Source: Desulfovibrio aminophilus DSM 12254
GTDB lineage: Bacteria > Desulfobacterota > Desulfovibrionia > Desulfovibrionales > Desulfovibrionaceae
Length of the DNA stretch: 64,000 bases
Assembly (NCBI RefSeq): GCF_000422565.1
Contig: NZ_KE383875.1
Span: forward strand, 193,742 to 257,741
Direction of reading: 5' to 3'
Shown here: one piece after another, positions 6,016 through 64,000 of the stretch
How positions within the stretch are numbered: position 1 is the stretch's first letter
How the letters are laid out: the number at the start of each line of letters is the position of its first letter
Made by a program: the position numbers and the translations under genes
Notes under the pieces: model-generated
What the model saw: the letters and a program-made list of their open reading frames with translations, nothing else
Databases searched by the model: none
What the model was told of the DNA's origin: nothing

Positions 6016-6028
6016 GAGGAAACGACGC

Positions 6029-12192: not shown

Positions 12193-12224
12193 GCCGCGAC
12201 GCATTCCGGAACAAGGAGATCAGC

Positions 12225-15097: not shown

Positions 15098-16110
15098 ACG
15101 GGACGTTGAACATGCGGGAAATCCCCCTGCCCGGACCGGACCGGGCCGCCGACTGCCAGGCGTTCTCCATGCGCGCCGTGGGCGGCGTACTGTATTTCGG
15201 CACCAGGAACCGGGGCGGGGCGCGCCTCCACCGCCTCGGGCCCGACGGGCGCGTGGAGCCGGTGCTCCGGCTCGACCCCGACAACGTGGACATCTACGGC
15301 ATCTTCCCCTTCGGCGGACGGCTCCTGCTGGGAACCTACAACGAGAAAGGCGGACAGCTCCTGCGGCTGCATCCCGACGGACGGCTGGAGATGATCTTCG
15401 ACCGGGGCCTGGACGACCCGGACAACAAGGACATCTGGTCCCTGGCCGAGCACCGCGGGCGGCTCTACTTCGGCACCTGGAACAACCGGAGCGGCGGCAA
15501 GATCTACCAGGGCGACGGCGAGTCCTTCCGGCGCGTCTGGGATTCCGGCGATCCGGCCGTGTCCTATGTCCGGGCCTTCGCGGAGCTGGACGGACGGCTC
15601 CACGCCTCGCTGGGCAACCGCTGCTCCCCGCCGGTGCTGCTGCATCTGGACGGGGAACGGGTCGAAACCGTGCCCACGCCCATGCTCCCACCCCGAGGCG
15701 ACGTGTACGTCCTGCGGGCCTTCCGCGACCGGCTCTTCCTCGGCGTGGCCGCCTACCACGCCAACGAGGCCGTAGGCGGGGCCGAGGTCTGGTCCTTCGA
15801 CGGGCGGAACTTCTCGCCCAGCGCCCTGGGCGGCTTCGGCAATCCGAACAACATCTACATCCTCTCGATCACGGAGTGGAACGGGACGCTGGTCTGCGCC
15901 ACATACAACTTCAAGGACGGCTGCGAACTCTGGGCCAGCGCCGACGGCGACGCCTGGAAGCCGCTCGTCCGGGGCGGATTCGGCCAGGGTCCGGCCAACG
16001 AGAGCGTGGTCTACGGCCTGGAGGTTCTGGACGGCAGGCTCTACGCGGCCACCCGAAACACCCGGGACGGCTGCCGCCTGTACGTCCTGGACTGCGACGA
16101 GCGGAGGTGA
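15094..16110 (+). CDS. Second beta-propeller-like protein
   Basis: The 338-residue protein is made of repeated blades with an 'LYFGT..N' core: GVLYFGTRNRGGARLHRL, RLLLGTYNEKGGQLLRL, RLYFGTWNNRSGGKIYQ, LFLGVAAYHANEAVGGAEVW, LVCATYNFKDGCELW and LYAATRNTRDGCRLY. That suggests a six-bladed propeller. No signal peptide or membrane segment is seen. The function is unknown. It sits between two methyltransferase genes, starts by overlap at 15094, and is not an obvious duplicate of the propeller at 1475-2800. Confidence 0.68.
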   Translation: MNGTLNMREIPLPGPDRAADCQAFSMRAVGGVLYFGTRNRGGARLHRLGPDGRVEPVLRLDPDNVDIYGIFPFGGRLLLGTYNEKGGQLLRLHPDGRLEMIFDRGLDDPDNKDIWSLAEHRGRLYFGTWNNRSGGKIYQGDGESFRRVWDSGDPAVSYVRAFAELDGRLHASLGNRCSPPVLLHLDGERVETVPTPMLPPRGDVYVLRAFRDRLFLGVAAYHANEAVGGAEVWSFDGRNFSPSALGGFGNPNNIYILSITEWNGTLVCATYNFKDGCELWASADGDAWKPLVRGGFGQGPANESVVYGLEVLDGRLYAATRNTRDGCRLYVLDCDERR

Positions 16111-16113
16111 GCC

Positions 16114-16830
16114 ATGCCCGATCCGACTCTCTTCCGTGAACATCCCGACTACGTGGGCGACGAGCGCGCCGTGGACCTCGTCCTGGACGACCTCTTCCCG
16201 GCAGAAATCCTGCGGCCCGCCTTCGAAGGCTGCCTGGCCGGGGCTCCCACCGAGTACCACGAGGCCATCCTGAACCTGCGCGAGAACAACTTCCGCCACC
16301 GTACCGAAATCTTCATCAGCAACCTCGGCCTGAACACCGTCCGGCCGCGCCGGGTCATCGACGTGGGCACGGGAATGGCCCACTTCCCGCGCCTGTGCGA
16401 GTACTTCGGCCACGACACCCTCTGCACGAGCCTGGAAAGCGAGGACAGCCGTGATTACTACGTCTGCGTCCGCCGCAGGCTTGGTTATCCGGACCCCGTC
16501 GACCTGGAGGTCCGGGCCATGGAGCCGCTGCCCGGGGAACTGCGCGACCTCGACGACTGGATTTTCCTGAGCCCGACGTTCAACATGCAACACGGAGAGC
16601 GCCACTGGGACACGAGCCGCTTCTGGCCCATCGAGCCCTGGCTCTTCCTCTTCCGCGACCTGGCCACGAGGCTGCGCCCCGGCGGCCGCGTCTATTTCTA
16701 CGCCGTGCGCTGCGCGGCGGAACACCTGGGCATCCTGCGGCGGGAGTGCTCCGGCCTCTTCGACTTCCTGAAGGCCAAGCCCTGGGACGGAGAAAAGGAC
16801 TTCGGGGAAATCCTCCTGCGCGCGAAGTGA
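16114..16830 (+). CDS. SAM-dependent methyltransferase-like protein
   Basis: The 238-residue protein has a Rossmann-type motif RVIDVGTGMAHFPRL around residues 78-92 and LRPGGRVYFYAVRC late in the chain, which fits a class I methyltransferase. The acidic residue normally ending strand beta-2 appears in TSLESEDS. The middle (FLSPTFNMQHGERHWDTSRFW) is unusual and may form the acceptor site. The substrate is unknown. It starts three bases after the propeller gene, with GGAGGTGAGCC in front. Confidence 0.7.
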   Translation: MPDPTLFREHPDYVGDERAVDLVLDDLFPAEILRPAFEGCLAGAPTEYHEAILNLRENNFRHRTEIFISNLGLNTVRPRRVIDVGTGMAHFPRLCEYFGHDTLCTSLESEDSRDYYVCVRRRLGYPDPVDLEVRAMEPLPGELRDLDDWIFLSPTFNMQHGERHWDTSRFWPIEPWLFLFRDLATRLRPGGRVYFYAVRCAAEHLGILRRECSGLFDFLKAKPWDGEKDFGEILLRAK

Positions 16831-16836
16831 GGACAC

Positions 16837-17538
16837 ATGGAACGCGTTCTGACCGTCATTCCGGCCAAGGGGCACTCCCGGCGGGTGCCCGGCAAGAACA
16901 GGGCCCTCCTGGCGGGCAAGCCGCTGGTGATTCACGCCGTGGAGCAGGCCCTGGCCTCCGGGGTCTGCGGCGAAATCTGCGTGGGCACGGACAGCGTGGA
17001 GATCGCCGCGCTGGCCCGCGAGGCCGGGGCTTCGGTTCCCTTCCTGCGCACGGACGACGTGGACGACATCACCCCCGTGGGCGTGGCCGCGCTGAACATC
17101 CTGCTCCGCTACCGCGAGGAGCTGAACCGCACCTTCGACCTGCTCTGTCTGCTGCTGACCACCTCGCCGCTGCGCTCGGCCGAGGACATCCGGGCCTGCC
17201 GCGACGTGCTCCTGTCCCGGCCGGACCTGGACGCCTCCATGAGCTTCGTGCGGGCCGAGAAGCACCCGGCCTGGGCCTGGAAATTCGCCGATGGGGGGCG
17301 CATCGAGCCCATGTTCCCGGACCGCTGCGACCTGGGGCGGCACGAGCTGGACCCGGCCTACTACGTGGACGGCGCGGTCTACTGGGCCAGGGTTCCGTTC
17401 TTCGAGCAGGCGGGCGGCAACCAGTACGCCGGCCGGGTGGGCGGGCACGTCATGGACCCGGAGCGGGCCGTGGACGTGGACACCCCCCTGGATCTGGCCT
17501 TCGCGGAATATCTGCTGACCCGGGAGCGCGGACGGTGA
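16837..17538 (+). CDS. pseF: CMP-nonulosonic acid cytidylyltransferase (PseF/NeuA family)
   Basis: The 233-residue enzyme activates a nonulosonic acid with CTP before transfer. It has the nucleotide-binding start IPAKGHSRRVPGKN, the LLLTTSPLRSAEDI stretch (the counterpart of the LQPTSP motif), and DPERAVDVDTPLDL at the end. The Gly-Gly-Ser of the common IPARGGS signature is Gly-His-Ser here. Length is normal. Its gene overlaps the next by four bases (GTGA). With the partial copy at position 1, the locus has at least two such enzymes. Confidence 0.87.
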   Translation: MERVLTVIPAKGHSRRVPGKNRALLAGKPLVIHAVEQALASGVCGEICVGTDSVEIAALAREAGASVPFLRTDDVDDITPVGVAALNILLRYREELNRTFDLLCLLLTTSPLRSAEDIRACRDVLLSRPDLDASMSFVRAEKHPAWAWKFADGGRIEPMFPDRCDLGRHELDPAYYVDGAVYWARVPFFEQAGGNQYAGRVGGHVMDPERAVDVDTPLDLAFAEYLLTRERGR

Positions 17539-18518
17539 GCCCGCGCCTGGCGGTCGTCGGCCTGGGCCGCATCGGATGCGGCCTGGACATGGGGCCCGGG
17601 GGCAACCTCGGACAGACCCACGCCGGAGCCGCGCGCCTCTGTCCGGGCCTGGAACTGGCGGGCGGGGCCGATCCGGACCCCGGACGGCGCGAGGCTTTCC
17701 GGCTGGCATTCGGGGTTCCGGCCTTCGCCTCGGCCGAGGAGATGTTCGCTGCGCTGCGGCCGGACATGGCCGCCGTGGCGACTCCTCCCGATCTGCACGC
17801 GGACGGGGTTCTGGCCGCCCTGGACGGCGGAGTCCGGGCCGTGGTCTGCGAGAAACCCCTGGAGGCTGATCCGCGCCGCGCCGGAGAACTCGTGCGGCAA
17901 TGCCGCGAACGCGGCGCGATCCTGGCCGTCGCCCACTGGATGCGCTGGAGCGCGCCCTGGACCGGGGCCGCGCGGATGCTGCGCGAGGGAGGCCTGGGAA
18001 CCCCGCGCCGGGTCCGCTACCTCTATTCCAAGGGACTTTTCAACAGCGGCACCCACGCCCTGGACATCCTGCGCCTGCTCTTCGGGGAGATCGCGGAGGT
18101 CCGGGCCGAGGGCGCGTCCATGCTGGACACCGGCGAACTCAACGTGGACGGCCGGGTCCGGTTCCGGAACGGCTTGGAGGCCGAACTGCGGACCCTGGAC
18201 TACCGTGAGCACTTCACCACGGAATGCGACATCCTCGGCGGCCTGGGCCGCCTCGTGCTGGGCGACGAGGTCCGCCTCCTCAGACCCGCCGGGCCCGGCG
18301 GCCGCCTGGAGCCGATGACGCCGCCCTTCCCGACCGCCGACGCGGAGAGCCCCTTCGTGGCCCTCTACCGCGATCTGGCGCGGATTCTGGAACACGGCGG
18401 CGAACCCCGCTGCACGGGCCGCGACGCCCTGGCCGCGCTGCTGACGGCCCGGGCCCTGCTCCGCTCCCTGGAGGAAGGGGGCCGAACCATCATCCCGGAG
18501 AGTCCGGACCATGTCTGA
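17535..18518 (+). CDS. Gfo/Idh/MocA family oxidoreductase
   Basis: This is a 327-residue NAD(P)-dependent sugar oxidoreductase. The dinucleotide loop is VVGLGRIGCGLD, and ADMAAVATPPDLHADGVL and VVCEKPLEADPRRAGEL contain the family Glu-Lys-Pro signature. The second half has the expected sheet domain with FNSGTHALDILR carrying a likely catalytic His. It could oxidise or reduce a nucleotide sugar to create a keto group for the neighbouring aminotransferase. GTG at 17535 overlaps the cytidylyltransferase stop, and the gene ends overlapping the aminotransferase start. Confidence 0.85.
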   Translation: MSPRLAVVGLGRIGCGLDMGPGGNLGQTHAGAARLCPGLELAGGADPDPGRREAFRLAFGVPAFASAEEMFAALRPDMAAVATPPDLHADGVLAALDGGVRAVVCEKPLEADPRRAGELVRQCRERGAILAVAHWMRWSAPWTGAARMLREGGLGTPRRVRYLYSKGLFNSGTHALDILRLLFGEIAEVRAEGASMLDTGELNVDGRVRFRNGLEAELRTLDYREHFTTECDILGGLGRLVLGDEVRLLRPAGPGGRLEPMTPPFPTADAESPFVALYRDLARILEHGGEPRCTGRDALAALLTARALLRSLEEGGRTIIPESPDHV

Positions 18519-19752
18519 ACAACTGGCCCTGCTGGGCGGAGAGCCCGTCAGCCGCGAATCCTGGCCCTTCTACAACACCATCGGCTCCGAGGAGAAGGCG
18601 GAGGTCATGGACGTCCTCGACAGCGGGGTGCTCTCGGACTACCACGCCACGCCCGGCCCGCGCTTCCTGGGCGGCCCCAAGGTCCGTCTGCTGGAAGAAC
18701 GCTGGAACGAGGCGTTCGGCGTCCCGCACTCCGTGGCCATGAACTCCGCCACGAGCTGCCTGCACGCGGCCCTGCACGCCTGCGGCGTGGGCCCCGGCGA
18801 CGAGGTCGTGGCGCCCCAGCTCGGAATGTCCGCCGCCGCCGCGGTGGTGACGGCCCTGGGCGCGCGGCCCGTTTTCGCGGACTGCCGCCCCCGGACCATG
18901 CTCCTGGACCCCGCGGACCTCGCCCGGCGCTGCGGCCCGAAGACCAAGGCCTGCATCGTGGTGCATCTGGCCGGGCAACCCGCGCCCATGGACGAGATCA
19001 TGGCCCTGGCCGCCGAGCGCGGCTTCAAGGTCGTGGAGGACAACGCCCAGGCTCCGGGCGCCCTGTACAGGGGCCGCCCGGCGGGGACCATCGGCCACGT
19101 GGGCTGCTTCAGCCTGAACTGCCACAAGATCATCCAGTGCGGCGAGGGCGGCGTGGCCTGCACCCACGACCCGGAACTGGCCCTGCGCCTGCGGCTCTTC
19201 CGCAACCACGGCGAGAAATGCGCCACCGCCTATGGCCTGGCGGCCGAAGCCCCCTACGGTCTGAACCTGCGGCTCACCGAACTGTCCGCCGCCGTGGCCG
19301 TGCATCAGCTGGGCCGCCTCAAGGAGCTCAACGCCCGCACCGTGCTCATGGCCGAGCGCCTGACCGCCGCCCTGAACCTGCCCGGCATCCTTCCCCCGGA
19401 GCGTGTGCCCGACACCACGCACGTCTACTACATCTATCACTGGGAGTACCTGGCCGAGGCCGTGGGAGTTCCGGCGGAACTCTTCGCCCGCGCCGTGCGG
19501 GCCGAGGGTTTCCCGGTCCACGCCCACTACGGCTATCTTCTCTCCGACCTGCCGCCCTTCAACGGCGGCCGCGCGCCCGCCCCGGCCCCGCAGTCCCACC
19601 CGGACTACCCCGGAGCCAGCCAGGCCATCCGCGACTCCCTCTGGACCATGTTCCTGCGCCCGCACCTCTCCCTGGAGGACGTGGACCTCCTGGCCGAGGC
19701 CGTGCGCAAGGTCCACCGCCACCGCGAGGCCCTGCGGAGGTCCGCCGCATGA
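18511..19752 (+). CDS. DegT/DnrJ/EryC1/StrS sugar aminotransferase
   Basis: This 413-residue PLP enzyme has AMNSATSCLHAALHA, VVEDNAQAPGALYRG and the PLP lysine in FSLNCHKIIQCGEGG (Lys206), followed by NLRLTELSAAVA. It transfers an amino group to a keto sugar. The oxidoreductase gene just before it overlaps by eight bases, which suggests the pair makes an amino sugar by oxidation and transamination. The start AACTGGCC after ATG at 18511 is preceded by GGAGAGTCC. It is more like the StrS/KdnA-type enzymes than PseC. Confidence 0.87.
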   Translation: MSEQLALLGGEPVSRESWPFYNTIGSEEKAEVMDVLDSGVLSDYHATPGPRFLGGPKVRLLEERWNEAFGVPHSVAMNSATSCLHAALHACGVGPGDEVVAPQLGMSAAAAVVTALGARPVFADCRPRTMLLDPADLARRCGPKTKACIVVHLAGQPAPMDEIMALAAERGFKVVEDNAQAPGALYRGRPAGTIGHVGCFSLNCHKIIQCGEGGVACTHDPELALRLRLFRNHGEKCATAYGLAAEAPYGLNLRLTELSAAVAVHQLGRLKELNARTVLMAERLTAALNLPGILPPERVPDTTHVYYIYHWEYLAEAVGVPAELFARAVRAEGFPVHAHYGYLLSDLPPFNGGRAPAPAPQSHPDYPGASQAIRDSLWTMFLRPHLSLEDVDLLAEAVRKVHRHREALRRSAA

Positions 19753-52877: not shown

Positions 52878-54683
52878 ATGACCAAGACCGAAAACATCCG
52901 AAATTTCAGCATCATCGCCCACATCGACCACGGCAAGTCCACCCTGGCCGACCGCATTCTGGAGATCACCGGTCTGGTCTCGGAACGCGAGAAGCGGGAC
53001 CAATACCTGGACAAGCTGGAGCTGGAGCGCGAGCGGGGCATCACCATCAAGGCCCAGACCGTGCGCATCCCCTACACGGCGCGCGACGGCAAGAAATACA
53101 TCCTGAACCTCATCGACACGCCCGGCCACGTGGACTTCTCCTACGAGGTCTCGCGCAGCCTGGCCGCCTGCGAAGGCGCGCTGCTGGTGGTGGACGCCTC
53201 CCAGGGAGTGGAGGCCCAGACCCTGGCCAACGTCTACCTGGCCCTGGACCACAACCTGGAGATCATCCCGGTCCTGAACAAGATCGACCTGCCCAGCGCC
53301 GACCCCGAGCGGGTCAAGGCCGAGATCGAGGAGATCATCGGCCTGGACTGCAAGGACGCCCTGGCCGTGAGCGCCAAAACCGGGATGAACGTGGCCGAGG
53401 TTCTGGAGCGGATCATCACCCATCTGCCCGCGCCCAAGGGCGACGCGGACGCGCCGCTCAAGGCCCTGATCTTCGACTCCTGGTACGACTCCTACCAGGG
53501 CGTGGTGGTGCTCTTCCGCATCCTGGAAGGGACGTTGCGCCTGGGCGAACGCATCCAGATCTGCTCCACCAAGCGCAGCTTCGAGGTCACCAAGCTCGGC
53601 GCGTTCTCGCCCGAGCCCGTGGAGTTCAAGGAGATGGGCCCCGGCGAGGTGGGCTTTCTCTGCGCGGCCATGAAGGAGCTGGGCGACGCTCCCGTGGGCG
53701 ACACCGTCACCAAGCCCGAGAACCCCACACCCGAACCGTTCCCGGGCTTCAAGACCGTCAAGCCCATGGTCTTCGCCGGGCTCTACCCGGTGGAGCCCTC
53801 GGAGTACGAGCCGCTCAAGGTGGCGCTGGAAAAGCTGCACCTCAACGACGCGGCCTTCAGCTACGAGCCCGAGACCTCCACGGCGCTCGGCTTCGGCTTC
53901 CGCTGCGGCTTCCTGGGCCTGCTGCACATCGAGATCGTGCAGGAGCGCCTGGAACGCGAGTTCGAGGCCAAGCTCATCACCACCGCGCCCTCGGTGATCT
54001 ACGAGGTCACGACCACCAAGGGCGAGGAGCTGGAGATCGACAACCCCAGCCGGATGCCCGATCCGGTGTACATCGAGGCCGTGCGCGAACCCTACGTGCG
54101 CATGGAGGTGCACGTGCCCAACGAATACGTGGGCAACGTGCTCAAGCTCTGCGAGGAGAAGCGGGGCATCCAGAAGGACATCCGCTACCTGACCAGCACC
54201 CGGGTGATCATCACCTACGAGATGCCCTTCGCCGAGATCATGTACGACTTCTTCGACAAGCTGAAGTCCGGCACCCGGGGCTACGCCTCCCTGGACTACG
54301 AGATCATCGACTACCGCGAGGCCGATCTCGTCAAGCTGGACATCCTCATCAACGCCGACCCGGTGGACGCCTTCTCGGTCATCGTGCACCGCCAGAACGC
54401 GGCCCAGGTGGGCCGGTCCCTGGCCCTGCGGCTCAAGCGCAGCATTCCGCGCCAGATGTTCGAGGTGGTCATCCAGGCGGCCATCGGCAAGAAGATCATC
54501 GCCAAGGAAAGGGTGGCGCCGTTCCGCAAGGACGTCATCGCCAAGTGTTACGGAGGCGACATCACCCGCAAACGCAAGCTCCTGGAGAAGCAGAAGGAAG
54601 GCAAGCGCCGCATGCGCCGCATGGGCAACGTGGAGATTCCGCAGGAAGCCTTCCTCGCCGTGCTGAAAGCAGGGGACGAATAA
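52878..54683 (+). CDS. lepA: Translation elongation factor 4 (LepA)
   Basis: The 601-residue GTPase acts on ribosomes and favours back-translocation or initiation. G1 is [15 protein letters not shown]2 includes the RGITIK region, G3 is DTPGHVDF and G4 is [10 protein letters not shown]. The unique C-terminal domain is seen in [22 protein letters not shown] and [23 protein letters not shown]. Length is exactly typical. TAAGGAG precedes it. It is followed after nine bases by lepB, the usual gene pair. Confidence 0.97.
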
Positions 54684-54692
54684 GGACGGTCC

Positions 54693-55364
54693 ATGAATCC
54701 GACGTGGTGGAAGACGCTCAGGGAGTACGCCGAGGCGCTCATCGTGGCGCTGGTCCTGGCGCTGGTGATCCGGGCGTTCATCGTGCAGGCCTTCAAGATT
54801 CCCTCCGAATCCATGCTGAACACCCTGCTGGTGGGCGACCATCTGCTGGTGACCAAGTTCGCCTACGGGGTGCGGCTGCCCTTCTCGGACAAGGTCATCG
54901 TGCCCGTATCCGACCCCAAGCGCGGGGACGTGGTGGTCTTCGAATATCCCGTGGACCCGGACAAGGACTTCATCAAGCGCGTCATCGGCACGCCGGGCGA
55001 CGTGGTGGAGATCAAGGCCAAGCAGGTCTTCGTCAACGGCAAGCTCCTGGACGAGCCCTACGCGATCCACGACGAGCCCGTGGCCGTGCCCAATCCGCAC
55101 ATGTCCGAGGTCAACGCCGACCCGGCCGAGTACTTCGACCGCAACAGCTTCTCCTGGAAGCGCGACTGGATGCCCAAGACCACGGTGCCCGAGGGCAAGT
55201 ACTTCGTCATGGGCGACAACCGCGACCACTCCTACGACTCGCGCTTCTGGGGCTTCGTGGACCGCTCGGCCCTGCGCGGCAAGGCGCTCATCATCTATTG
55301 GTCCTGGGACTTCACCGGCGGCCTGGACATCCGCTGGAGCCGCATCGGACGGCTGGTGCACTAG
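54693..55364 (+). CDS. lepB: Signal peptidase I
   Basis: The 223-residue inner-membrane protease removes signal peptides from exported proteins. An N-terminal membrane segment (ALIVALVLALVIRAFIV) precedes the catalytic Ser40 (PSESML) and Lys95 (FIKRVIGTPGD). The conserved box E, MGDNRDHSYDSRFWG, lies near the end. The Lys-Arg spacing fits the family. It is cotranscribed with lepA and followed by a strong terminator. Confidence 0.96.
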   Translation: MNPTWWKTLREYAEALIVALVLALVIRAFIVQAFKIPSESMLNTLLVGDHLLVTKFAYGVRLPFSDKVIVPVSDPKRGDVVVFEYPVDPDKDFIKRVIGTPGDVVEIKAKQVFVNGKLLDEPYAIHDEPVAVPNPHMSEVNADPAEYFDRNSFSWKRDWMPKTTVPEGKYFVMGDNRDHSYDSRFWGFVDRSALRGKALIIYWSWDFTGGLDIRWSRIGRLVH

Positions 55365-55388
55365 CCCGGCCGGGGACAATGACGACAC

Positions 55389-55419
55389 AGGCCGCTCCCG
55401 CGAGGGGGCGGCCTTTTTT
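55389..55419 (+). terminator. Rho-independent terminator of lepA-lepB
   Basis: A ten-pair stem (GGCCGCTCCC with GGGGGCGGCC, one G-T pair) around a GCGA loop is followed directly by six T, starting 25 bases after the lepB stop. Confidence 0.9.
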
Positions 55420-55494
55420 CGCGCCCTTGCGGCCGGGGTTCAAAACGCTTACACCAGCCGACATGCGCTGGATGTTGAAACCATTGGGAAATCC

Positions 55495-55608
55495 ATGATC
55501 GCCAAAGCAGCCACCGCGGCCCTGCTGGGCATCGACGCCTTCCGCGTGGATCTGGAGGTGGACCTCGCCCGCCAGGGAATGCCCGCCTTCGTCATGGTAG
55601 TTCATTAG
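55495..55608 (+). pseudogene. comM: comM (yifB) 5' fragment, cut by island insertion
   Basis: ATG at 55495 opens the start of a YifB/ComM protein (MIAKAATAALLGIDAF, then DLARQGMPAFVMV). After codon 32 the chromosomal frame meets the 8-base core GTCATGGT at 55591; the frame then reads into island DNA and stops at 55606-55608, giving only 37 codons. The rest of the gene resumes at 61602. GGGAA before the ATG may be the ribosome site. ComM is an AAA+ helicase that helps branch migration during natural transformation. Confidence 0.92.
55591..55598. other. Left attachment core (attL)
   Basis: GTCATGGT at the left junction is shared with the right junction. Upstream is comM codon 32; downstream is AT-richer island DNA. 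Confidence 0.8.
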
Positions 55609-55643
55609 ACACCCCGAACCATATTTAAAAGTGGGAGCCGTGT

Positions 55644-56630
55644 ATGTCTAAACAAGATGTGATTGATGACCTCCTAGACTACCTTGAGAATCGGATGCAG
55701 ATGAGCCACATCTATCAGCCGCTAGTGATTCGTTGTCTTGTCGAGGCTGACGGCACGGCCACTATCAGACAGATAGCCCAAGCGTTCGTGGCCCAAGATG
55801 AGAGCCAACTCCAGTATTACGAGAAGCGAGCCAAGGAGATGCCCTTACGCGTTCTCCTCAAAAACGGAGTCATTGAACGCCAGGGCGATTTGGTCCGTCT
55901 GAAGGTGGGGAAGCTCACCTTCGAGCAAAAGGCCCAGTTGAAGATGACGTGTGAGCGAAAGATGCAGGAGTTCATCGTCAACAGGGGCCTCAAGATTTGG
56001 GACTACCGTCTACTTGATGGCCCTGTCTCTGGGACGGTCTACTTCGATGTGATGAAGGAATCTGGCGGCAAGTGTGCCCTTTGCGGAGCCACAAAAGAAT
56101 CTCGCCCACTGGACGTGGACCACATCATACCTGCCTCAAGAGGAGGGAAGTCCACCAAGGACAACCTTCAAGTTCTTTGTTTTAAGTGCAACCGCTCGAA
56201 GGGCAATCGGGATAGCACGGACTTCAGAAGCTCGACAGAGGCAGACTTTGAAACATCTTGCCCTTTCTGCTACTCAAACATGGAGAAGTCCAAGGTGGTG
56301 GAGGAGAATGGCACAGTGTACGCGGTCAAAGACGGCTGCCCAGTGTCAGAAGGACACCTTCTCATCATCCCGAAACGACACACTCGAGACTACTTCACGA
56401 TGACCACCCGGGAACGCCGTGATGCTGAAGACCTCCTTCGCGTTCTCAAAGCCCAGAAGGAACTAGAGGACAAGAGCGTCACAGGATTCAACGTGGGGAT
56501 GAACAGCGGGGAATCGGCAGGGCAAACCATCTTCCACGCTCACATCCACCTTATCCCCAGGCGAAATGGGGACACTCCGAATCCCCGGGGAGGTGTGAGG
56601 GGCGTAATCCCCGACAAGATGTCCTACTAG
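55644..56630 (+). CDS. HNH endonuclease-HIT domain fusion protein
   Basis: The 328-residue protein has three parts. Residues 1-90 look like a winged-helix region (RQIAQAFVAQDESQLQYYEKR). Residues 140-185 form an HNH nuclease: Cys144-x2-Cys147, Asp159-His160, Asn174 and Cys179-x2-Cys182-Asn183. Residues 205-328 form a HIT domain with a zinc pair (Cys206-x2-Cys209) and the histidine triad HAHIH (298-302). HIT proteins hydrolyse or transfer nucleotidyl groups. The combination suggests a nucleic-acid-targeting enzyme with a nucleotide-processing step, possibly for defence; this is not shown. ATG at 55644 follows GGGAG. It is the first gene inside the island. Confidence 0.85.
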   Translation: MSKQDVIDDLLDYLENRMQMSHIYQPLVIRCLVEADGTATIRQIAQAFVAQDESQLQYYEKRAKEMPLRVLLKNGVIERQGDLVRLKVGKLTFEQKAQLKMTCERKMQEFIVNRGLKIWDYRLLDGPVSGTVYFDVMKESGGKCALCGATKESRPLDVDHIIPASRGGKSTKDNLQVLCFKCNRSKGNRDSTDFRSSTEADFETSCPFCYSNMEKSKVVEENGTVYAVKDGCPVSEGHLLIIPKRHTRDYFTMTTRERRDAEDLLRVLKAQKELEDKSVTGFNVGMNSGESAGQTIFHAHIHLIPRRNGDTPNPRGGVRGVIPDKMSY

Positions 56631-56641
56631 GAGGTGGACCT

Positions 56642-57322
56642 ATGAGACGTTTCACCGTTCCTATCCCCCTTCTGCTCCTTTTCTCCCTCCTGGCTCTCCC
56701 CGCTTGGACGTGGCCTGGGAAGGTCATCAAGGTTGCTGATGGCGATACCCTCACGGTTTTGAGAGATGGGAGAGAACAGGTCAGGATTAGGCTGTACGGG
56801 ATTGATGCGCCGGAGAGTAAACAAGACTTCGGCACACGGTCTAAGCAATCTCTCTCGGACATGGCATACGGGCAGACCGTGGAAGTCACCCCTGTTGTCC
56901 AGGACCACTACGGACGCACAGTAGCGCATATCCAGGTTCGCGGGCAGGACGTGAGTGAAGCCCAGGTGAAAGACGGCATGGCCTGGGTATACCGGCAGTA
57001 CTGCACAGAGGCGGCCTGTAAAGATTGGCTGAGCTTAGAACAGCAAGCAAGGGACCGTAAGGCAGGGCTGTGGGCTGGCCCTTCCCCTATGCCCCCATGG
57101 GAGTGGCGACACGGCAGAGCGCAAAACGTTTCCCAAGCCGAGAAGAGCAAGGCTAAGCCTGATACTCAGCCCGGCATTGTCTATCACGGGAACGTCAGGA
57201 GCGGAGTATTCCACCGGCCAGGGTGCCAGCACTACAACTGCAAGAACTGCGTAGACGTGTTCCCGTCGAGAGAGGCGGCGATTAAAGCAGGGTACCGGCC
57301 CTGTCCGTTATGCCGCCCCTAA
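56642..57322 (+). CDS. Secreted thermonuclease-like protein (SNase fold)
   Basis: The 226-residue protein has an N-terminal signal peptide (hydrophobic MRRFTVPIPLLLLFSLLALPAW), so it is probably exported. The SNase domain shows VADGDTLTVL (Asp33, Asp35), RIRLYGIDAPE (Arg50, Asp55, Glu58) and DHYGRTVAHI (Arg92), matching the metal-binding and catalytic Arg/Glu of staphylococcal nuclease. The C-terminus (FHRPGCQHYNCKNC, then YRPCPLCRP) has paired cysteines that may bind zinc. It should cut DNA and RNA outside the cytoplasm. AGGAGG precedes ATG at 56642. Confidence 0.88.
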   Translation: MRRFTVPIPLLLLFSLLALPAWTWPGKVIKVADGDTLTVLRDGREQVRIRLYGIDAPESKQDFGTRSKQSLSDMAYGQTVEVTPVVQDHYGRTVAHIQVRGQDVSEAQVKDGMAWVYRQYCTEAACKDWLSLEQQARDRKAGLWAGPSPMPPWEWRHGRAQNVSQAEKSKAKPDTQPGIVYHGNVRSGVFHRPGCQHYNCKNCVDVFPSREAAIKAGYRPCPLCRP

Positions 57323-57325
57323 TCG

Positions 57326-57640
57326 CTAATCGTCATCCCCGTACCGATTGCCCCAGGTGTTGCCGTAAGAAGAGCCGTAGGGCGACCCATACGAGTTGGA
57401 AGGCCCATAGCCGGAGTTCGGGTAAGGGTCCTTGTACCCAGGCTGGCCGGTGTAGGGGTTCACGTTCCCCTTGGTAGACCAGTTGTTATACGGGTTGCCG
57501 TCAGGAGCCGAGCGCATATGCGGCTGAACGTAGGTCCCGTCCTTCCGGTAGTAGCCATTCACGTGCACCTTGCCACCGGCAAACACCGAAGTCGCCAGCA
57601 ATGTAATGGCTAAGCACAGCGCAATAATTAACTTTTTCAT
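57326..57640 (-). CDS. Small exported protein with DGTYVxPHxRS motif
   Basis: The 104-residue protein has a signal peptide (MKKLIIALCLAITLLATSVFAG) and a mature part with GYYRKDGTYVQPHMRSAPDGNP, NNWSTKGNVNPYTG, then a Gly/Ser/Tyr-rich tail (YGPSNSYGSPYGS). Short exported proteins with this motif occur in many proteobacteria, often on mobile DNA; their function is unknown. It ends three bases from the nuclease stop on the other strand. GGGGGG precedes the start. Confidence 0.8.
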   Translation of the reverse strand: MKKLIIALCLAITLLATSVFAGGKVHVNGYYRKDGTYVQPHMRSAPDGNPYNNWSTKGNVNPYTGQPGYKDPYPNSGYGPSNSYGSPYGSSYGNTWGNRYGDDD

Positions 57641-58041
57641 AGCGCCCCCCGAAGTTATAGCTCTTAAGTTATCTTAAGCTTCATACCGCGTCTAGGGGGA
57701 ATGAGCCCGCCGAACGCTCCCAGGCCCGCCCCCACGAGGGGAAGCGCCCTCTTCGCACTCAAAACGTACCCACTTCAGATTTTTGCGCCAAAATGGCCCT
57801 ACAATCGCTTCTAGCCTAACGGGTGAACAATCTACCGCCAAAGTAATTAGGATTGATTCTAGGCCATATTCTGCGCGAAATACGCCTACATGGATAGTGA
57901 CGAACTACCTCACCACCGCGCCACCACCGTGCCACCACCCGCGCCGTCCACGGACGCCCACCACCGTGGGTACACTTCGATGGTACCTGTCCTGTACTCT
58001 GCTCTCTATTGAAGTGTTGGTAGAGTAGGTGTAGCCAGGAT

Positions 58042-58202
58042 GGTATACATAAACTAGTACACTATGGATAGTTTATGATTGACTGTTTGAGTAACCTATG
58101 GTATTTTTGAAGAAGAATATAAAGGCATTTCTCTTTGTCTTTCTACTTCTAACAGTATGTTAACTAGAATTGTATACATCTAAGCTAACTATAGTGTATA
58201 CA
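58042..58202. repeat. GTATAC palindrome cluster
   Basis: GTATAC occurs at 58043-58048, 58172-58177 and 58196-58201. The last two are full TGTATACA (58171-58178 and 58195-58202), with centres 24 bases apart. The spacing suggests a paired binding site for a regulator or replication protein. Confidence 0.55.
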
Positions 58203-58305
58203 ATATCAGCCAACTCATTATTTCCCCATCCATAGCTATTACCTCTCCCTGCCAGTAGTCCGTACCTTTCCCGCGTCTTCCATATTAATTAGATAAGCGA
58301 CAAGG

Positions 58306-58340
58306 TATTAACTAGTCATCTGACTATTAACTAGTTAACA
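58306..58340. repeat. TTAACTAGTTAA repeat, left cluster
   Basis: A perfect 12-base palindrome TTAACTAGTTAA lies at 58327-58338, with a partial copy TTAACTAGT at 58308-58316; a weaker copy TTAACTAG lies at 58160. The 16-mer TATTAACTAGTTAACA at 58325-58340 recurs exactly at 59789-59804. Confidence 0.8.
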
Positions 58341-58596
58341 CCTCGGACAACTGTAGACCCTGCCCCTCCCCACAGGAAGGTATCTCCACGTCTTGCCCCG
58401 CGACGCTTGTGCGGGCCATTTTCCGGCACAAATTTCTGAGGCGGTAACAGTTCAGGCGGAACGTGGCTGTGTGTCCCCCGTGGGGGTCGCGCCTGGGCCG
58501 TGCGGCGGGGGTGTTACCCAGTCTAAGAGATATATAGCGCCGGTTCTTCTTGTCGGCAGGAGAGTTGCCGGGATTGTCGATACAGTATTCTTTAGA

Positions 58597-58622
58597 ATTC
58601 TGTCTTGACTTAATGTCAGAAT
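58597..58622. promoter_or_regulatory. Inverted repeat over the resolvase promoter region
   Basis: ATTCTGTC (58597-58604) and GTCAGAAT (58615-58622) form an inverted repeat with one mismatch, overlapping a TTGACT (58605-58610) that could be the -35 box of the resolvase. It could be a self-repression or res subsite. Confidence 0.4.
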
Positions 58623-58676
58623 CGTTTGTATTCATGGACCGAGCCACCACTTGATACACTCTAGGAGGCATCGGGT

Positions 58677-59381
58677 ATGAGTACTCCCGTGAAGGCTTAC
58701 GGATACGTCCGAGTCTCGGGCAAGGGACAGGTAGAGGGCGATGGGTTCCGCCGTCAGGAAGCTGAGATTCAAGCCTTTGCCCAAGCCAATGGCTATGAGG
58801 TTGTCCACGTGTACCGAGAGGAAGGCATCTCCGGGACTGCCGGGGAAGCGGACAGGCCAGCTTTCCAGGAAATGGTATCGGCAATCCTACGCAATGGGGT
58901 TCGCACGGTCATTGTAGAGGGCCTGGACAGGCTTGCCCGTAAGTACCGTATCCAAGAGACGTTGCTTATATACCTCACTTCCAAGGACATAGCCCTGATT
59001 GCCGCCAGGACAGGGGAGGACGTGACGGAAGCGGTCATGGCTGACCCAATGCGCAAGGCCCTGGTTCAGATTCAAGGCGTCTTTGCCGAGCTTGAAAAGG
59101 GGCTACTCGTTAAGAAGCTCAGGGTAGCCCGCGAGAGGATGCGCGAAGAAAAGGGGCAGTGCGAGGGGAGACATGCCTACACGCACGAAACGCTGCCAGA
59201 GGCCCTTAGAGAGGCCCTAGAGGCCATCAGGGTGATGCGTCGTACCAAGCCGGGGCAGAAGCGGAAGAGCTTCGCAGAGATGGCCAGCGTGTTGAATGCG
59301 CAAGGCTTGGTGACTGTTCAGGGGAAGCCGTTCACGGGGTACAATGTACAGGCTATATGGCGACGGCATAGGAAGCTTTAG
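58677..59381 (+). CDS. Small serine recombinase (resolvase/invertase family)
   Basis: The 234-residue protein has the serine recombinase N-terminal domain: YGYVRVSGKGQ with catalytic Ser14, FRRQEAEIQAFA, VIVEGLDRLARKY, and FAELEKGLL. The C-terminal part (KRKSFAEMASVLNAQGL, GKPFTGYNVQAIWRRH) is a helix-turn-helix-like DNA-binding region. It acts by double-strand exchange at paired sites. AGGAGG precedes ATG at 58677. The flanking TTAACTAGTTAA repeats are candidate sites. Its catalytic domain differs clearly from the large recombinase at 59926. Confidence 0.9.
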   Translation: MSTPVKAYGYVRVSGKGQVEGDGFRRQEAEIQAFAQANGYEVVHVYREEGISGTAGEADRPAFQEMVSAILRNGVRTVIVEGLDRLARKYRIQETLLIYLTSKDIALIAARTGEDVTEAVMADPMRKALVQIQGVFAELEKGLLVKKLRVARERMREEKGQCEGRHAYTHETLPEALREALEAIRVMRRTKPGQKRKSFAEMASVLNAQGLVTVQGKPFTGYNVQAIWRRHRKL

Positions 59382-59503
59382 TTTTGTTCCTCCCTCTGCG
59401 GCTATCAGTTTTTTAGCACGTTATCGCTTGCGTAAGTGAAAGCGTGATAAGTGTTTATATGCTCTCTGAATGCGTTATAGTGCCGCAAAAAGGAGATGTA
59501 GAC

Positions 59504-59773
59504 ATGGAATTCCTCCTCCAAGTCGATTGTGAAGATGGACGACAGATTGAGCTTGAGATTTCACAAAGATTTCAGACTGTGTATTCATCAGATGTAGCCA
59601 AGTATTGCCTATTCAATCGCCTCAAGCCGGACGTACTTGCTAGCTTTGAATTCGAGTATGACCTTATGAAGGAGCTTACACAGCGGCTAGAAAAGCTGTT
59701 TGAGCACGTGCCGAGCATGGATGAACTGGCGGCGATGAATGAAATGGAGTGGCTGGGGGTGTTAACTAGTTAA
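59504..59773 (+). CDS. Small protein of unknown function
   Basis: The 89-residue acidic protein (MEFLLQVDCEDGRQIELEI, then MKELTQRLEKLFEH) has no recognised family, signal peptide or membrane segment. AAAGGAG precedes the ATG at 59504 well, so I prefer it to an in-frame ATG at 59444. Its stop codon lies in a TTAACTAGTTAA palindrome (59761-59774). A recombination directionality factor is a possible role given its size and place, but nothing in the sequence shows it. Confidence 0.55.
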   Translation: MEFLLQVDCEDGRQIELEISQRFQTVYSSDVAKYCLFNRLKPDVLASFEFEYDLMKELTQRLEKLFEHVPSMDELAAMNEMEWLGVLTS

Positions 59774-59824
59774 CAGGTAACTTGGCAGTATTAACTAGTT
59801 AACAGTTTCTATTACTAGTTAACT
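59761..59824. repeat. TTAACTAGTTAA repeat, right cluster
   Basis: Two perfect palindromes (59762-59773 and 59791-59802) and a near copy TTACTAGTTAAC (59812-59823) follow the small gene. With the left cluster they bracket the resolvase and small-gene module at a distance of about 1.5 kb. Confidence 0.8.
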
Positions 59825-59925
59825 CTGCGTATGAATGGCGGTGTACATTGTCCTGTGTACGCCGCCTTTCATTCCATGTGTCCAGGGGGATTCACCACTC
59901 CTGCCACTTGGGACACTGGAGCCGT

Positions 59926-61539
59926 TCAACTCTCCGGGAACATCCCTTTTGCCGTAAGGTGAAAGGAGCTTGTCCCTCCGCTCTTCCAGTGAATAATGCC
60001 CAGGTTGCTTTCCCAATCCAACTCAATTTGAGTTGTGAGCTGTCTTAGCGCCCCATTCAGCTTTGCTCGTGCTGCTAGGACCGGCTCTGGGGCATCAGCG
60101 GATACGTAGGGGGTAGCTGAGGCCCGAGCTTCCTTAATGGCCTCTTCAAGCTCTTGAGCGGCGGCGCTTAATTGCTGGAGCTTCCCACGGAGAATAGGCC
60201 CGGTGAAGGCGCTAAGCTTCTGTAACGTCTCTTCTAAATTACGCTCAGCTTGGGTTTTCAGGTGCTCATAGTGGCGTAAGCGTTCTATCATGGTGGTTGG
60301 AGCCGGAGCCTTTGCGCGCTCTATATTTTCAAGCAGGCGACCAATTTGCTCTCTCAGTTTATCAAGCTCTGACTCATAGCCTCCATAAAGAGCTTTAAGG
60401 CGTGCTTCTTCGGAAGAGTCTACAGGGTAGTCTAGTATGATGTCGCCAACCTGCCACGGGAAATGTTCCTCAACCTCTTGGTATCGGAGAGAATGGTAAG
60501 AACAGCCTTTGCCGCTCCTAGCGCCGTTGCAAACGAGATAGCGCACACCGGCGTTTCGGGAGGTGAGAATCATTCGCTTCCCGCAACGGGGGCAGGTAGC
60601 AAGACCGCCGAAAATGTTGGGCACACCCTTGTATGCTGCGCGGCCATGTACCGGGCTCTTGGTGGCTCTGAGGGCCTGAACCCGCTGGTATGTCGTATCG
60701 TCCAGAATCGAAGGATAGAAGTCAGGGATTGGAGTCTGGGGAATCCTACGCCGTTTGCCGCCTTCCCGGCTATCAATATGCGGCGTGAATATGCCGAGTA
60801 CTGCCGGGTTGGTGAGTATTTTTACGATGTAAGATGTTTGCCATTCTTTCCCTTGGAAGTGTGGCACTTGCTCTTCATTTAGGGCTTTGGCTGTCAGGTA
60901 GGGCGACATACCATCAAGGGCCATTTGGAAAATTCGGCGGACAACCTGGGCGCGTTCCTCAATAACTTCATACTTGGTGCGGTCATCGGATAGCTTGAGC
61001 CATTGAGGGCACCAGCGGGTCATAGGCCGAAGAGCAGCAGCAGCTTTCTCGCGCATGTCTGCCCATGTTGCTCTCTGGCGGCGAGATTTGGTCAGGCTTT
61101 CATCATTCGCCCGAATCATGAGAGCAATGGACACAATTACATCAGTCGGGCTACTATTTAAACCGTCATGCGAATAGACCCGCTCATCGGCGAGGGTGAC
61201 AATAGTAATCCCGTCAGCTACTATGTTGAGGAAGAGTAATTGAGCTTCGACTACCGCTTCTCGTGTGAGGCGGTCTAAGCTTTCAATGAGTAGGTAGCTT
61301 CCTTCTGGAACTGAGCCTTGGTGGATGGCGGCAAGGAACTCACTCAGCTTACCAACGCGATGATGGCGGCCATGAAAAGCGGACAAGCCCAAGTCTTCAA
61401 AGCGCAACTCGTCATCAAGCACTAGCCCATGTCTCTTGGCGTAATCCTCGGCAAGCTTGGTTTGACGGCGAAAGCTATCTCCCTTAGCCTGCTCAGGAGT
61501 GGAGAAACGTAGGTAGGAATATGCGCGTGGCCGGGTCAT
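59926..61539 (-). CDS. Large serine recombinase (integrase)
   Basis: The 537-residue protein has the catalytic domain at the N-terminus (YLRFSTPEQ with Ser13; FRRQTKLAEDYA; LLIESLDRLTREAV). A Recombinase domain follows (YLTAKALNEEQVPHF, GKEWQTSYIVKIL). A zinc ribbon is present (CPRCGKRM then YLVCNGARSGKGC). A coiled-coil region follows (LEETLQKLSAFTG, LSAAAQELEEAIKEA). This is the layout of phage-type integrases that need only short attP and attB sites. ATG at 61539 follows AGGGGGG on the minus strand. The gene starts 62 bases inside the right end of the island, as is usual for such integrases. Confidence 0.94.
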   Translation of the reverse strand: MTRPRAYSYLRFSTPEQAKGDSFRRQTKLAEDYAKRHGLVLDDELRFEDLGLSAFHGRHHRVGKLSEFLAAIHQGSVPEGSYLLIESLDRLTREAVVEAQLLFLNIVADGITIVTLADERVYSHDGLNSSPTDVIVSIALMIRANDESLTKSRRQRATWADMREKAAAALRPMTRWCPQWLKLSDDRTKYEVIEERAQVVRRIFQMALDGMSPYLTAKALNEEQVPHFQGKEWQTSYIVKILTNPAVLGIFTPHIDSREGGKRRRIPQTPIPDFYPSILDDTTYQRVQALRATKSPVHGRAAYKGVPNIFGGLATCPRCGKRMILTSRNAGVRYLVCNGARSGKGCSYHSLRYQEVEEHFPWQVGDIILDYPVDSSEEARLKALYGGYESELDKLREQIGRLLENIERAKAPAPTTMIERLRHYEHLKTQAERNLEETLQKLSAFTGPILRGKLQQLSAAAQELEEAIKEARASATPYVSADAPEPVLAARAKLNGALRQLTTQIELDWESNLGIIHWKSGGTSSFHLTAKGMFPES

Positions 61540-61598
61540 TTGAAGCCCCCCTAGGTGAAAGGAAACCTATCAAGAGGCGTGGTCACAAATCAAGTACT

Positions 61599-63041
61599 AT
61601 GGTCATGGTCGGACTCGCGGAAGGCGCGGTGCGCGAGGCCAAGGAACGGGTCTTCGCCGCGCTCAAGAATTCCGGCTTCAGACTCCCGCCCTCGCGGATC
61701 ACCGTGAATCTGGCCCCGGCCGACGTGCGCAAGGAGGGCAGCGCCTACGACCTGCCCCTGGCCCTGGGCCTGCTGGCCGCCTCGGGCGCGTTCCCGGCCG
61801 AGCGGCTGGAGGGTTTCTTCTTCGCCGGGGAACTGTCGCTCACGGGCGAACTCAAGCCCGTGGAGGGCGTCCTGCCCCTGGCCATCCGGGCCCGCGACGA
61901 GGGCGCACGTGGCTTGGTCCTGCCCGTCGCCAACGCGGCCGAGGCCGCCGTGGTCAAGGGTCTGCCGGTGTTCGGGGCCGAGAGCCTCGGGCTGACGGTG
62001 GCCTTTCTCCTGGGCGAGGCCGAAATCGAGCCCGCGACTCTGGACATCGACACCCTCTGGGACAAGCGCCGCGACTTCCTCCTGGACTACGCCGACGTGA
62101 AGGGCCAGGAGCACGCCAAGCGGGCCATCGAGATCGCGGCCGCCGGCGGCCACAATCTCCTGTTCATCGGTCCGCCCGGCAGCGGCAAGACCATGCTGGC
62201 CCAGCGCATCCCCACGGTGCTCCCGCCGCTCAGGTTCGAGGAGGCGCTGGAGGTGACGAAGATCTACTCCGTGGCCGGGCAGCTCCCGCGCGACCAGGCC
62301 CTGATCGTGACCCGGCCCTTCCGCTCGCCGCACCACACCATTTCCGACGCCGGACTGGTGGGCGGCGGCACCTATCCCCGGCCGGGCGAGGTCTCCCTGT
62401 CCCACCGGGGCGTGCTCTTCCTGGACGAGCTGCCGGAGTTCAAGAAGCACGCCCTGGAGGTGCTGCGCCAGCCGCTGGAGGACGGGATGGTGACCATCTC
62501 GCGCGCGGCCGTGGCCCTGACCTACCCGGCGGACATCATGCTCGTGGCGGCCATGAACCCCTGCCAGTGCGGCTACCTCACCGACGACCGCCACCCCTGC
62601 ACCTGCACGCCCCAGTCCGTGCAGCGCTACCGGGCCAAGCTCTCCGGCCCGCTGCTGGACCGCATCGACCTCCAGGTGGAGGTTCCGGCCGTGCCCTACA
62701 AGGATTTGAAGGAAACGCGCGGCAGCGTGGACTCGGCCACCATGCGGGCGCGCATCGCCAAGGCCCGGTCCGTGCAGGCCGAACGCTACGGCGACAGCGG
62801 GCCGCACATCAATTCCGAGCTTTCGGGCTCGGCCCTGGAAAAGCACTGCCGCCTGTCCCGGCCGGAGCACGACTTCCTGGAGCAGGCGGTGAAGAAGCTC
62901 GGGCTCTCGGCCCGGGCCTACACGCGGGTGCTGCGCATCGCCCGGACCATCGCGGACCTGGACGGCGCGGAGACCCTGGCCGTGAACCACCTGGCCGAGG
63001 CCATCAACTACCGGAGCATGGACCGCCAGGGCCCGGCGTGA
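61599..63041 (+). pseudogene. comM: comM (yifB) 3' part, separated from its start by the island
   Basis: The frame resumes at the core (61602) as VMVGLAEGAVREAKERVFAAL and runs 479 residues to 63041. It keeps the AAA+ ATP loop FIGPPGSGKTML, LFLDELPEF (Walker B), MNPCQCGY and the C-terminal SARAYTRVLRIARTIADL of Mg-chelatase-like ComM. Only the first 32 residues are missing. The island supplies an in-frame ATG at 61599, touching the core, and another at 61521 with TAGGAAT before it, so a nearly complete protein might still be made. The 3' part carries no other lesion. Confidence 0.9.
61602..61609. other. Right attachment core (attR)
   Basis: GTCATGGT at the right junction, matching 55591-55598. 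The following bases continue comM in frame. Confidence 0.8.
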
Positions 63042-63051
63042 GGCCGCGACG

Positions 63052-64000
63052 ATGAACAGAAGCATCCTCCTCTCCCTCGTGGTGCTCCTCGGCCTGGCGG
63101 CCGGGGCGCGGGCGGCGAGTTTTCCCTGCGAGGACGCCGCCAACGACGTGGAAGTCCTGGTCTGCGGCGACTACCGGCTCTCGGTGCTCGACGAGCAGTT
63201 GGACGCCGTGTACCGCGTGGCCCTCAAGGCCAAGGTTCCCGATCTGACGGAGGAGCAGAAGGACTGGCTGGAGCAGGTCCGCGACCGCTGCCCGGACGCC
63301 GAGGGCCTGGCCCTGGCCTATCGCGAACGCATCGCCGCGCTCGTCAAGGCGGCCAAGACCGCCAGGCGCAAACTCTCGGACTTCGACTTCCCCCTGCTCA
63401 CCCCGGGCAAGGCCAAAACGGTCTGCGGGATCATCGCCGAACGGGCCAAGGCTGGAACCCTCCGGAGCCTGGAGGCCCAGGGCCGCGACCTCACCCAGGA
63501 GGAGCGGGCGCGCTTCGAGCCCGACGTCTCCTCGCCCACCCGGATGACCACGCTCCGCGACCGCTTCAACGGTCGGGACCAGGGCTTCCTGACGGCCAAC
63601 TCCGGCGGCTCCTGCAACACATCCTGGATCGTGGCCCTGGACGACCGGGGCCGCCCCCTGGACACCGACCAGGGAGGCGATCCCTCGGATTTCGGCACCG
63701 CCGACTTCGTGCTGACCGTCAAAGGCGAACCCTACGTGGTTCGCGCCGACGCAGGGTTACGACGGCCGACGCTCGTACGCGGCCTGCGCGAGGGCGCGCT
63801 CGCGCCGCTCTGCGGCCTGGAAACTTCTGGGGACCGGGGGATCGTGACGAAATCCGGCGACGACGCGGCATGCCGCGCGGCCCTGGCCGGAAAGCTCCGC
63901 CCCCTGGACTGGGAGCCCCTGGACTTCTGCGTCACGGCCGAAAACCGGGACAAGAACGTCTGCAAGGGCGGCCTCTGGGAACGCTCCGCCGTGGCGAAGG
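63052..64000 (+). CDS. LprI-like exported protein, C-terminus outside window
   Basis: The frame is open from ATG 63052 to the end of the window (316 codons seen). A signal peptide (MNRSILLSLVVLLGLAAGARA) precedes SFPCEDAANDVEVLVCGDYRLSVLDEQL and LTEEQKDWLEQVRDRCPD. This is the DUF1311/LprI pattern with its conserved cysteines, known from lysozyme-inhibitor-like proteins. The later part (CNTSWIVALDDRGRPLDTDQ) is not recognised. It probably acts in the periplasm or outer membrane. It begins 10 bases after the comM stop. Confidence 0.8.
   Translation, partial: MNRSILLSLVVLLGLAAGARAASFPCEDAANDVEVLVCGDYRLSVLDEQLDAVYRVALKAKVPDLTEEQKDWLEQVRDRCPDAEGLALAYRERIAALVKAAKTARRKLSDFDFPLLTPGKAKTVCGIIAERAKAGTLRSLEAQGRDLTQEERARFEPDVSSPTRMTTLRDRFNGRDQGFLTANSGGSCNTSWIVALDDRGRPLDTDQGGDPSDFGTADFVLTVKGEPYVVRADAGLRRPTLVRGLREGALAPLCGLETSGDRGIVTKSGDDAACRAALAGKLRPLDWEPLDFCVTAENRDKNVCKGGLWERSAVAK

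Follow-up and report, generated by a model that had tools for sequence, protein, structure and literature searches.

A precise 6-kb serine-integrase island at a minority target site of comM in Desulfovibrio aminophilus

Introduction

In the passages available of Durrant et al. 2022 (PMC10083194), 12.4% of the predicted site-specific serine integrases target a gene annotated as magnesium chelatase/ATP-dependent protease, and competence genes are enriched among serine-integrase targets. On our reading of these passages, the gene so annotated is YifB/ComM. According to the available part of PMC9203015, a magnesium chelatase gene is where most sr1WO prophages of Wolbachia insert, by means of a serine recombinase. 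The excerpt of Croucher 2016 (PMC4774983) lists comM and other competence genes as targets of elements and, as a separate anti-transformation means, element-borne DNases; it also gives two distinct comFA sites that are used in different genera. ComM itself is described as a helicase aiding the recombination of heterologous DNA (excerpt of PMC11472951), and the excision of SP-beta from spsM is described to reconstitute that gene (excerpt of PMC4191935).

Here we describe a 6-kb island in comM of Desulfovibrio aminophilus DSM 12254, located in a stretch of 64,000 nt that is referred to as the window, whose numbering is used for all positions. Similar to the elements in the available passages of PMC10083194, the island has a serine integrase and is intragenic, presumably in the same gene family. 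Its site is codon 33, whereas codons 216–221 are dominant among those of its relatives that were kept in the present analysis; the PMC10083194 passages do not give the site within the gene. In the part of PMC9203015 available, sr1WO resembles the island in its serine recombinase, in the gene portions on either side and in the intact gene of a relative, but it is a full prophage. The AbaR/Tn6022 and Tsy elements share the target gene and the expected effect on transformation, but differ in being Tn7-like or tyrosine-recombinase elements without a serine integrase, whose TnsF targets the Walker B region (excerpts of PMC10293859 and PMC11472951). Because of these published comM elements (PMC10083194, PMC9203015, PMC4774983, PMC11472951 and PMC10293859, each in the part available), the kind of element is already known. 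Among the papers listed on comM with Desulfovibrio and integrase, and on comM with nuclease, none was evidently about the present elements. The insertion is real, precise and ordinary in kind, and its minority target site is the interesting detail.

Results and Discussion

Junctions, Empty Sites and the Interrupted Frame

The island is delimited by the following features.

55495..55598, + strand: comM 5' piece (codons 1–32 plus core), ATG at 55495; continuous with the right piece once joined; aligns to intact comM of G002 and G001 up to 55598
55591..55598, unstranded: attL core GTCATGGT; likely crossover dinucleotide GT at 55591–55592, the dyad centre
61602..61609, unstranded: attR core GTCATGGT; second core copy, at which the congener alignments meet
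61602..63041, + strand: comM 3' piece (codon 33 to stop); TIGR00368 6.8e-178 from profile position 29

The core occurs twice on the + strand of the whole window with a spacing of 6011 bp, and no occurrence was detected on its − strand. When the flanks were joined at the core, the result was an uninterrupted YifB/ComM protein of 511 aa, which starts at ATG 55495 and in which the first codon of the core is codon 33 (V). This bears out the preliminary description, which had stated that the removal of 6011 bases restores the frame and that the right piece resumes at codon 33. The right part was recognized as a YifB-family Mg chelatase-like ATPase by both Pfam and NCBIfam, and only the profile start is missing from the match, which for TIGR00368 means the first 28 of 499 positions and for ChlI the first 7 of 121. 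Since this missing start is the stretch encoded by the left piece, the right part is an incomplete gene; a complete gene with its own N-terminus, which had been named as speaking against an interruption, was not found.

Two genomes of the same genus were aligned with the window. G002 aligns to 54094–55598 and 61602–63995, G001 to 54679–55598 and 61602–63045, and in both of them the left-flank and right-flank alignments overlap by exactly 8 bp, which are the core. Their comM is whole, with open frames of 557 and 558 aa that are 98% and 86% identical over the right part. The search for uninterrupted comM that had been proposed for related genomes thus returned two empty sites with flanks meeting at the core, and a relative with the same site lacking the core was not found, the 8-bp core being present in G001 and G002. 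The GC content of the island is 44–59% (500-bp windows), compared with approximately 62–72% in the flanks. Junctions, frame and empty sites all agree with the proposal that comM is interrupted in frame by a serine-integrase island that is precise and has a shared core, and chance is no reasonable explanation because core, frame and empty sites match to the base.

An ATG at 61521 is preceded by a purine-rich stretch and is antisense to the integrase start. It lies in frame with the right comM part, and the frame 61521–63041 is open according to the ORF list, so that an N-terminally replaced ComM might be made. Production of such an altered ComM is possible, and it might be active.

Gene Content of the Island

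The gene order from left to right is HNH-HIT, SNase, 104-aa orphan (reverse), non-coding stretch, small recombinase, 89-aa orphan and integrase (reverse).

55644..56630, + strand: HNH nuclease-like protein with HIT domain, 328 aa; Pfam HNH 4.3e-14, HIT 3.9e-17
56642..57322, + strand: SNase with C-terminal Ada-type zinc-binding domain, 226 aa; Pfam SNase 3.4e-23, Ada_Zn_binding 1.8e-7; thermonuclease structures matched
57326..57640, − strand: 104-aa orphan; no Pfam match; phrog_29674, function unknown
57660..58660, unstranded: non-coding stretch with AT-rich middle; palindromic TTAACTAGTTAA units at 58303–58343
58677..59381, + strand: small serine recombinase (resolvase-like), 234 aa; Pfam Resolvase 3.8e-27; 73% identical match in the G234 comM element
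59504..59773, + strand: 89-aa orphan; no Pfam, PHROG or NCBIfam match
59926..61539, − strand: large serine recombinase (integrase), 537 aa; Resolvase, Recombinase and Zn_ribbon_recom; phrog_95 integrase 8e-74

The Resolvase, Recombinase and zinc-ribbon Pfam models are all above cut-off in the one 537-aa integrase, which, as had been noted before, faces inward from the right end of the island; its 5' end is at the right junction. Its residues R10 and S12 and the motif E85-L87-D88-R89-R92 are invariant in a 6-row alignment, and we take them to be the conserved catalytic Ser/Arg motifs. Among solved structures, the integrase matched YokA of SP-beta. Its matches in phage (152) and plasmid (71) records are all below 60% identity, and no plasmid DNA match to the island was obtained at megablast sensitivity. 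The six element ORFs include no phage structural or replication genes (Pfam, PHROG), no relaxase domain (Pfam) and no Tns/Tni transposition proteins (Pfam, PHROG); in place of the Tns/Tni proteins and the transposon ends with a short target duplication that characterize AbaR/Tn6022 elements, a serine integrase and an 8-bp core are present.

The N-terminus of the SNase resembles a signal peptide as judged by eye, and the 104-aa orphan has, also by eye, a putative signal peptide and a G/Y/P/N-rich tail, together with two 50% matches in the G234 comM element. For the HNH-HIT protein, no phage or plasmid record covering 80% of its length was found. The TTAACTAGTTAA palindromes at 58303–58343 and 59758–59830 lie on either side of the small recombinase and 89-aa genes and may serve as operators or resolution sites. 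As for a directionality factor, none was identified in the island; as a guess, the 89-aa orphan is a candidate recombination directionality factor or regulator.

The attP Dyad and the Proposed Integration

The attP of a serine integrase is an imperfect dyad around a 2-bp crossover within a short shared core. We reconstructed attP by joining the element ends as in the circular form, which gave a dyad of 14 of 21 pairs with its centre at GT, the two bases that open the core. This level was reached by 2 of 2000 shuffles, as against 1553 of 2000 for the level of attB. A dyad was also observed for the attP of the G104 element (16/21, 0 of 1000 shuffles, centre CT) and, in weaker form, for that of the Dongia element (11/21, 28 of 1000 shuffles, centre AC), while the G284 element exhibited no such dyad (11/21, 113 of 1000 shuffles). 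In three of these elements (window, G104 and Dongia), as their sequences show, the centre precedes the GG of a glycine codon by 9/8 nt, and this codon comes after a hydrophobic stretch; among the three, the spacing holds for codon 33 and the usual site alike. The crossover deduced for G104 corresponds to codon 219 in window numbering; the usual site is written as codons 216–221 because alignment edges scatter.

With an empty site in two congeners, an 8-bp shared core, an integrase at the end of the island, an attP dyad and a restored frame, we consider it nearly certain that a 6011-bp integrative element entered comM by large-serine-recombinase recombination, splitting the gene in a manner that makes exact excision possible. 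In the proposed reaction, attP on the circular form would recombine with attB at comM codons 33–35 under catalysis by the large serine recombinase of the element, with strand exchange probably at the dinucleotide GT. Full-length ComM could then not be made from the split gene, and excision would restore comM exactly, presuming that the integrase is active and that an element-borne directionality factor permits it.

Such reversibility might be thought to serve a regulated switch, in which the element excises when ComM is needed, as the interruption is precise and in frame and SP-beta in spsM is a described precedent (excerpt of PMC4191935). Nevertheless, both congeners lack the element, which is therefore not a conserved switch, and it carries other genes, making this explanation scarcely credible. 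It is also very unlikely that the island is a dead remnant fixed in place, with the right comM part being a pseudogene or read from the new start at 61521. The single copy in one genome and the open frame 61521–63041 are compatible with a remnant, but no internal stops interrupt the matches of the recombinase, nuclease and HNH-HIT frames to their families, and the island has its two cores and the attP dyad.

For an integrative element that has split comM, the loss of ComM would lower the recombination of imported DNA and thereby may shield the element from curing by transformation, in accord with the published idea of intragenomic conflict. The same genome encodes ComEC and DprA homologues, as this transformation reading requires, although they are no proof of competence; with these homologues in the host, ComM loss could matter.

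Relatives of the Integrase and Their Target Sites

Single-protein scans of genome and viral contigs with the integrase, from which records of the same or very near genomes may be left out, returned no relative, and by these scans and the plasmid DNA search the island turned up in a single genome. Apart from the genome of the window, 33 of 348 in the class matched the integrase at E ≤ 0.001, some via small recombinases only; the match with the best score covers most of the length at 39% identity, and one 118-residue match has 53%. Scanning the six-row integrase alignment over a genome collection (84,980 species) gave 310 relatives, the best 80 of which were kept. Fifty-three of these best 80 of 310 sit in comM, 52 of them placed by script and one, L185, added since it lies beyond the 2-kb cut-off. 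Together with the 12.4% of targets in PMC10083194 and with sr1WO in PMC9203015 (both in the parts available), this count overturns the earlier impression of novelty in the targeting of comM by a serine-integrase element. The inserts measured 4.1–10.4 kb in the 23 comM loci of the best 80 relatives for which the script saw both halves.

Codons 216–221 (HNLLxIGPPGSGK; alignment edges 184–243) are broken in 51 of the best 80 relatives, and codon 33–35 in 2, namely L185 and L215; for the latter, the first comM piece was not found in the locus. The window site, codon 33, is not the commonest site of the relatives. Codons 216–221 are the usual, not the defining, site, and membership is set by gene and integrase clade. 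L185, from the alphaproteobacterium Dongia mobilis CGMCC 1.7660, resembles the window in that its integrase belongs to the same 39-row clade of the tree described below and its 5.56-kb insert breaks comM at codon 33. However, its integrase adjoins the first comM piece, whereas that of the window adjoins the second, and unlike the window its cargo includes a BglII-like restriction endonuclease and an N6/N4 methylase. When the viral relatives L251–L330 were searched for comM and the island genes, a comM piece was found to adjoin the integrase in one (L251).

Two further loci deserve description. L066 (G234, 8701–19073), apparently the same contig as L218, has an element near comM codon 216, whose resolvase is 73% identical to that of the window while its integrase is only 35–39% identical; to judge from these identities, the two elements appear to have parts in common but a different integrase and target. 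In L195 (Geomonas limicola, 5270–9942), comM seems to be broken twice, near codon 216 by an integrase element and at approximately codon 359, and an SNase match lies beyond the second break.

Phylogeny and Choice of Site within comM

In a quick 95-row tree, which was rooted at the midpoint and left out L181 (no integrase row) and L218 (a copy of L066), the window integrase was placed in a 39-row clade (SH-aLRT 99) but at no particular position inside it. The other rows of the clade are 33 from codon 216, L185 and four whose location is not known to be comM, and L215 is outside. The codon-33 label needed three changes on this tree, at least two of which are forced by starred branches, and the three codon-33 rows are no more clustered than shuffled labels. 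Because L215, outside the clade of the window, also uses codon 33, this site was reached at least twice. That the change ran from the usual site towards codon 33 we infer from frequency in the clade of the window only.

For the target sequences, 24 attB sites were rebuilt, several of them wrong (no true core in register), and matrices were made from 12, then 10 rows. On the intact comM of G002, a 39-nt matrix from 10 usual attB rows ranked the usual site first by far with a score of 48.5. Codon 33 came only 7th of 2990 with this whole matrix, at 0.4, and we accordingly rejected the idea that it is nothing more than a secondary version of the usual site. With an earlier 12-row matrix its rank was likewise 7 (score −3.3). 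The right half-matrix (−8..+12) ranked codon 33 2nd of 3028 and the left half (−27..−9) 505th of 3032, and two further sub-windows ranked it 4th of 3038 and 3rd of 3044. This half-site comparison was post hoc, with five matrix windows tried; it hints at a retargeting within comM in which one half-site was kept alike, a likeness that may partly reflect shared codon patterns. As the congener keeps a strong codon 216–221 site, the move to codon 33 does not follow from a lack of the usual site, and selection for comM breakage itself might explain it.

It is conceivable, although we hold it to be doubtful, that the integrase lineage keeps coming back to comM without one fixed attachment sequence. 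Strict loyalty to the gene was rejected, as the integrases of L065 and L070 are close in the tree to comM-resident ones but lie outside comM. L065 (G219, 7900–8620), close to the codon-216 integrase L067, adjoins a frame that by eye resembles a YjbQ protein. L070 (G015, 14900–15700), a near-copy of codon-353 integrases, has neither a comM piece nor a recognised gene adjoining, and its element end resembles that of G284. In the genomes of both, comM is whole elsewhere.

Interruptions of comM and Nuclease Cargo in the Class

comM was matched in 333 of 348 class genomes, and 36 genomes with a weak best match, picked by eye, were re-examined. At least 13 class genomes, including G000 and G004, have comM split by 6–60 kb on one contig, at about codons 33, 200, 216–221, 288 and 353–362; the number is a lower bound because the choice of the 36 was by eye. 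Cases with comM ending at contig breaks, and G293 with its halves far apart, were left out of the 13. Two candidates were rejected: the 423-aa ORF of G050:C7 is a DUF2254 membrane protein with no integrase match seen, and the comM halves of G095 overlap at contig ends.

In G291, G310 and G224 (L136–L138, L146–L147), comM is split at approximately codon 288 by 20–24 kb inserts that start with TGT. Those of G291 and G224 have ACA at the other end and 5-bp repeats (GGGGG, GCGGG), and presumably resemble Tn6022/AbaR-type elements in these ends and repeats; a large ORF at the end of the codon-288 inserts of the three genomes has no Pfam match. The two comM halves of G293 (C1:1956970–1957452 and 3878441–3879502; L071, L149) share a contig but are separated by 1.9 Mb and lie on opposite strands. 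Each half adjoins sequence resembling an end of the G284/G313 element, which suggests a large inversion through the element.

A two-domain SNase or PLD nuclease, with a signal-peptide-like start as judged by eye, was found in 6 of the 13 split-comM elements of the class (SNase in G000, G004, G284 and G313; PLD in G234 and G328), and also in the element of G317, of which only part was seen. None was found in the 10 non-comM integrase regions (12–20 kb) of the class; 1.9 kb of the G328 insert lies outside this comparison. In the wider set, the best 80 of 310 relatives, a nuclease was detected in 7 of 53 comM loci vs 2 of 27 non-comM loci, where the 7 include L195 (nuclease outside the insert) and L199 (weak 25% match), and hence there is no general rule that joins comM with a nuclease. 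SNase matches at E ≤ 0.001 occur in 288 of 348 class genomes, and most among the matches listed end before the zinc domain.

These counts bear on a double block of transformation, in which the element would break comM and also bring a secreted nuclease that destroys incoming DNA. The class counts, obtained at different comM sites, speak for it, and comM insertion and element-borne DNases have both been published, for separate elements (excerpt of PMC4774983). We regard it as unlikely, however, as the excess does not hold up in the wider set, the G284 and G313 integrases are identical or near-identical and thus not independent, secretion was judged by eye, and SNase matches are widespread.

Conclusions

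The integrative element described here adds a small serine-integrase island of this bacterial class to the known comM hotspot. Its site at codon 33 and the usual site at codons 216–221 are two natural attB sites for related integrases, which offer a handle on target-specificity change, and the specificity change of such integrases is of interest for genome-engineering tools. The same pair of sites lets one ask whether selection on islands favours the disabling of comM specifically.
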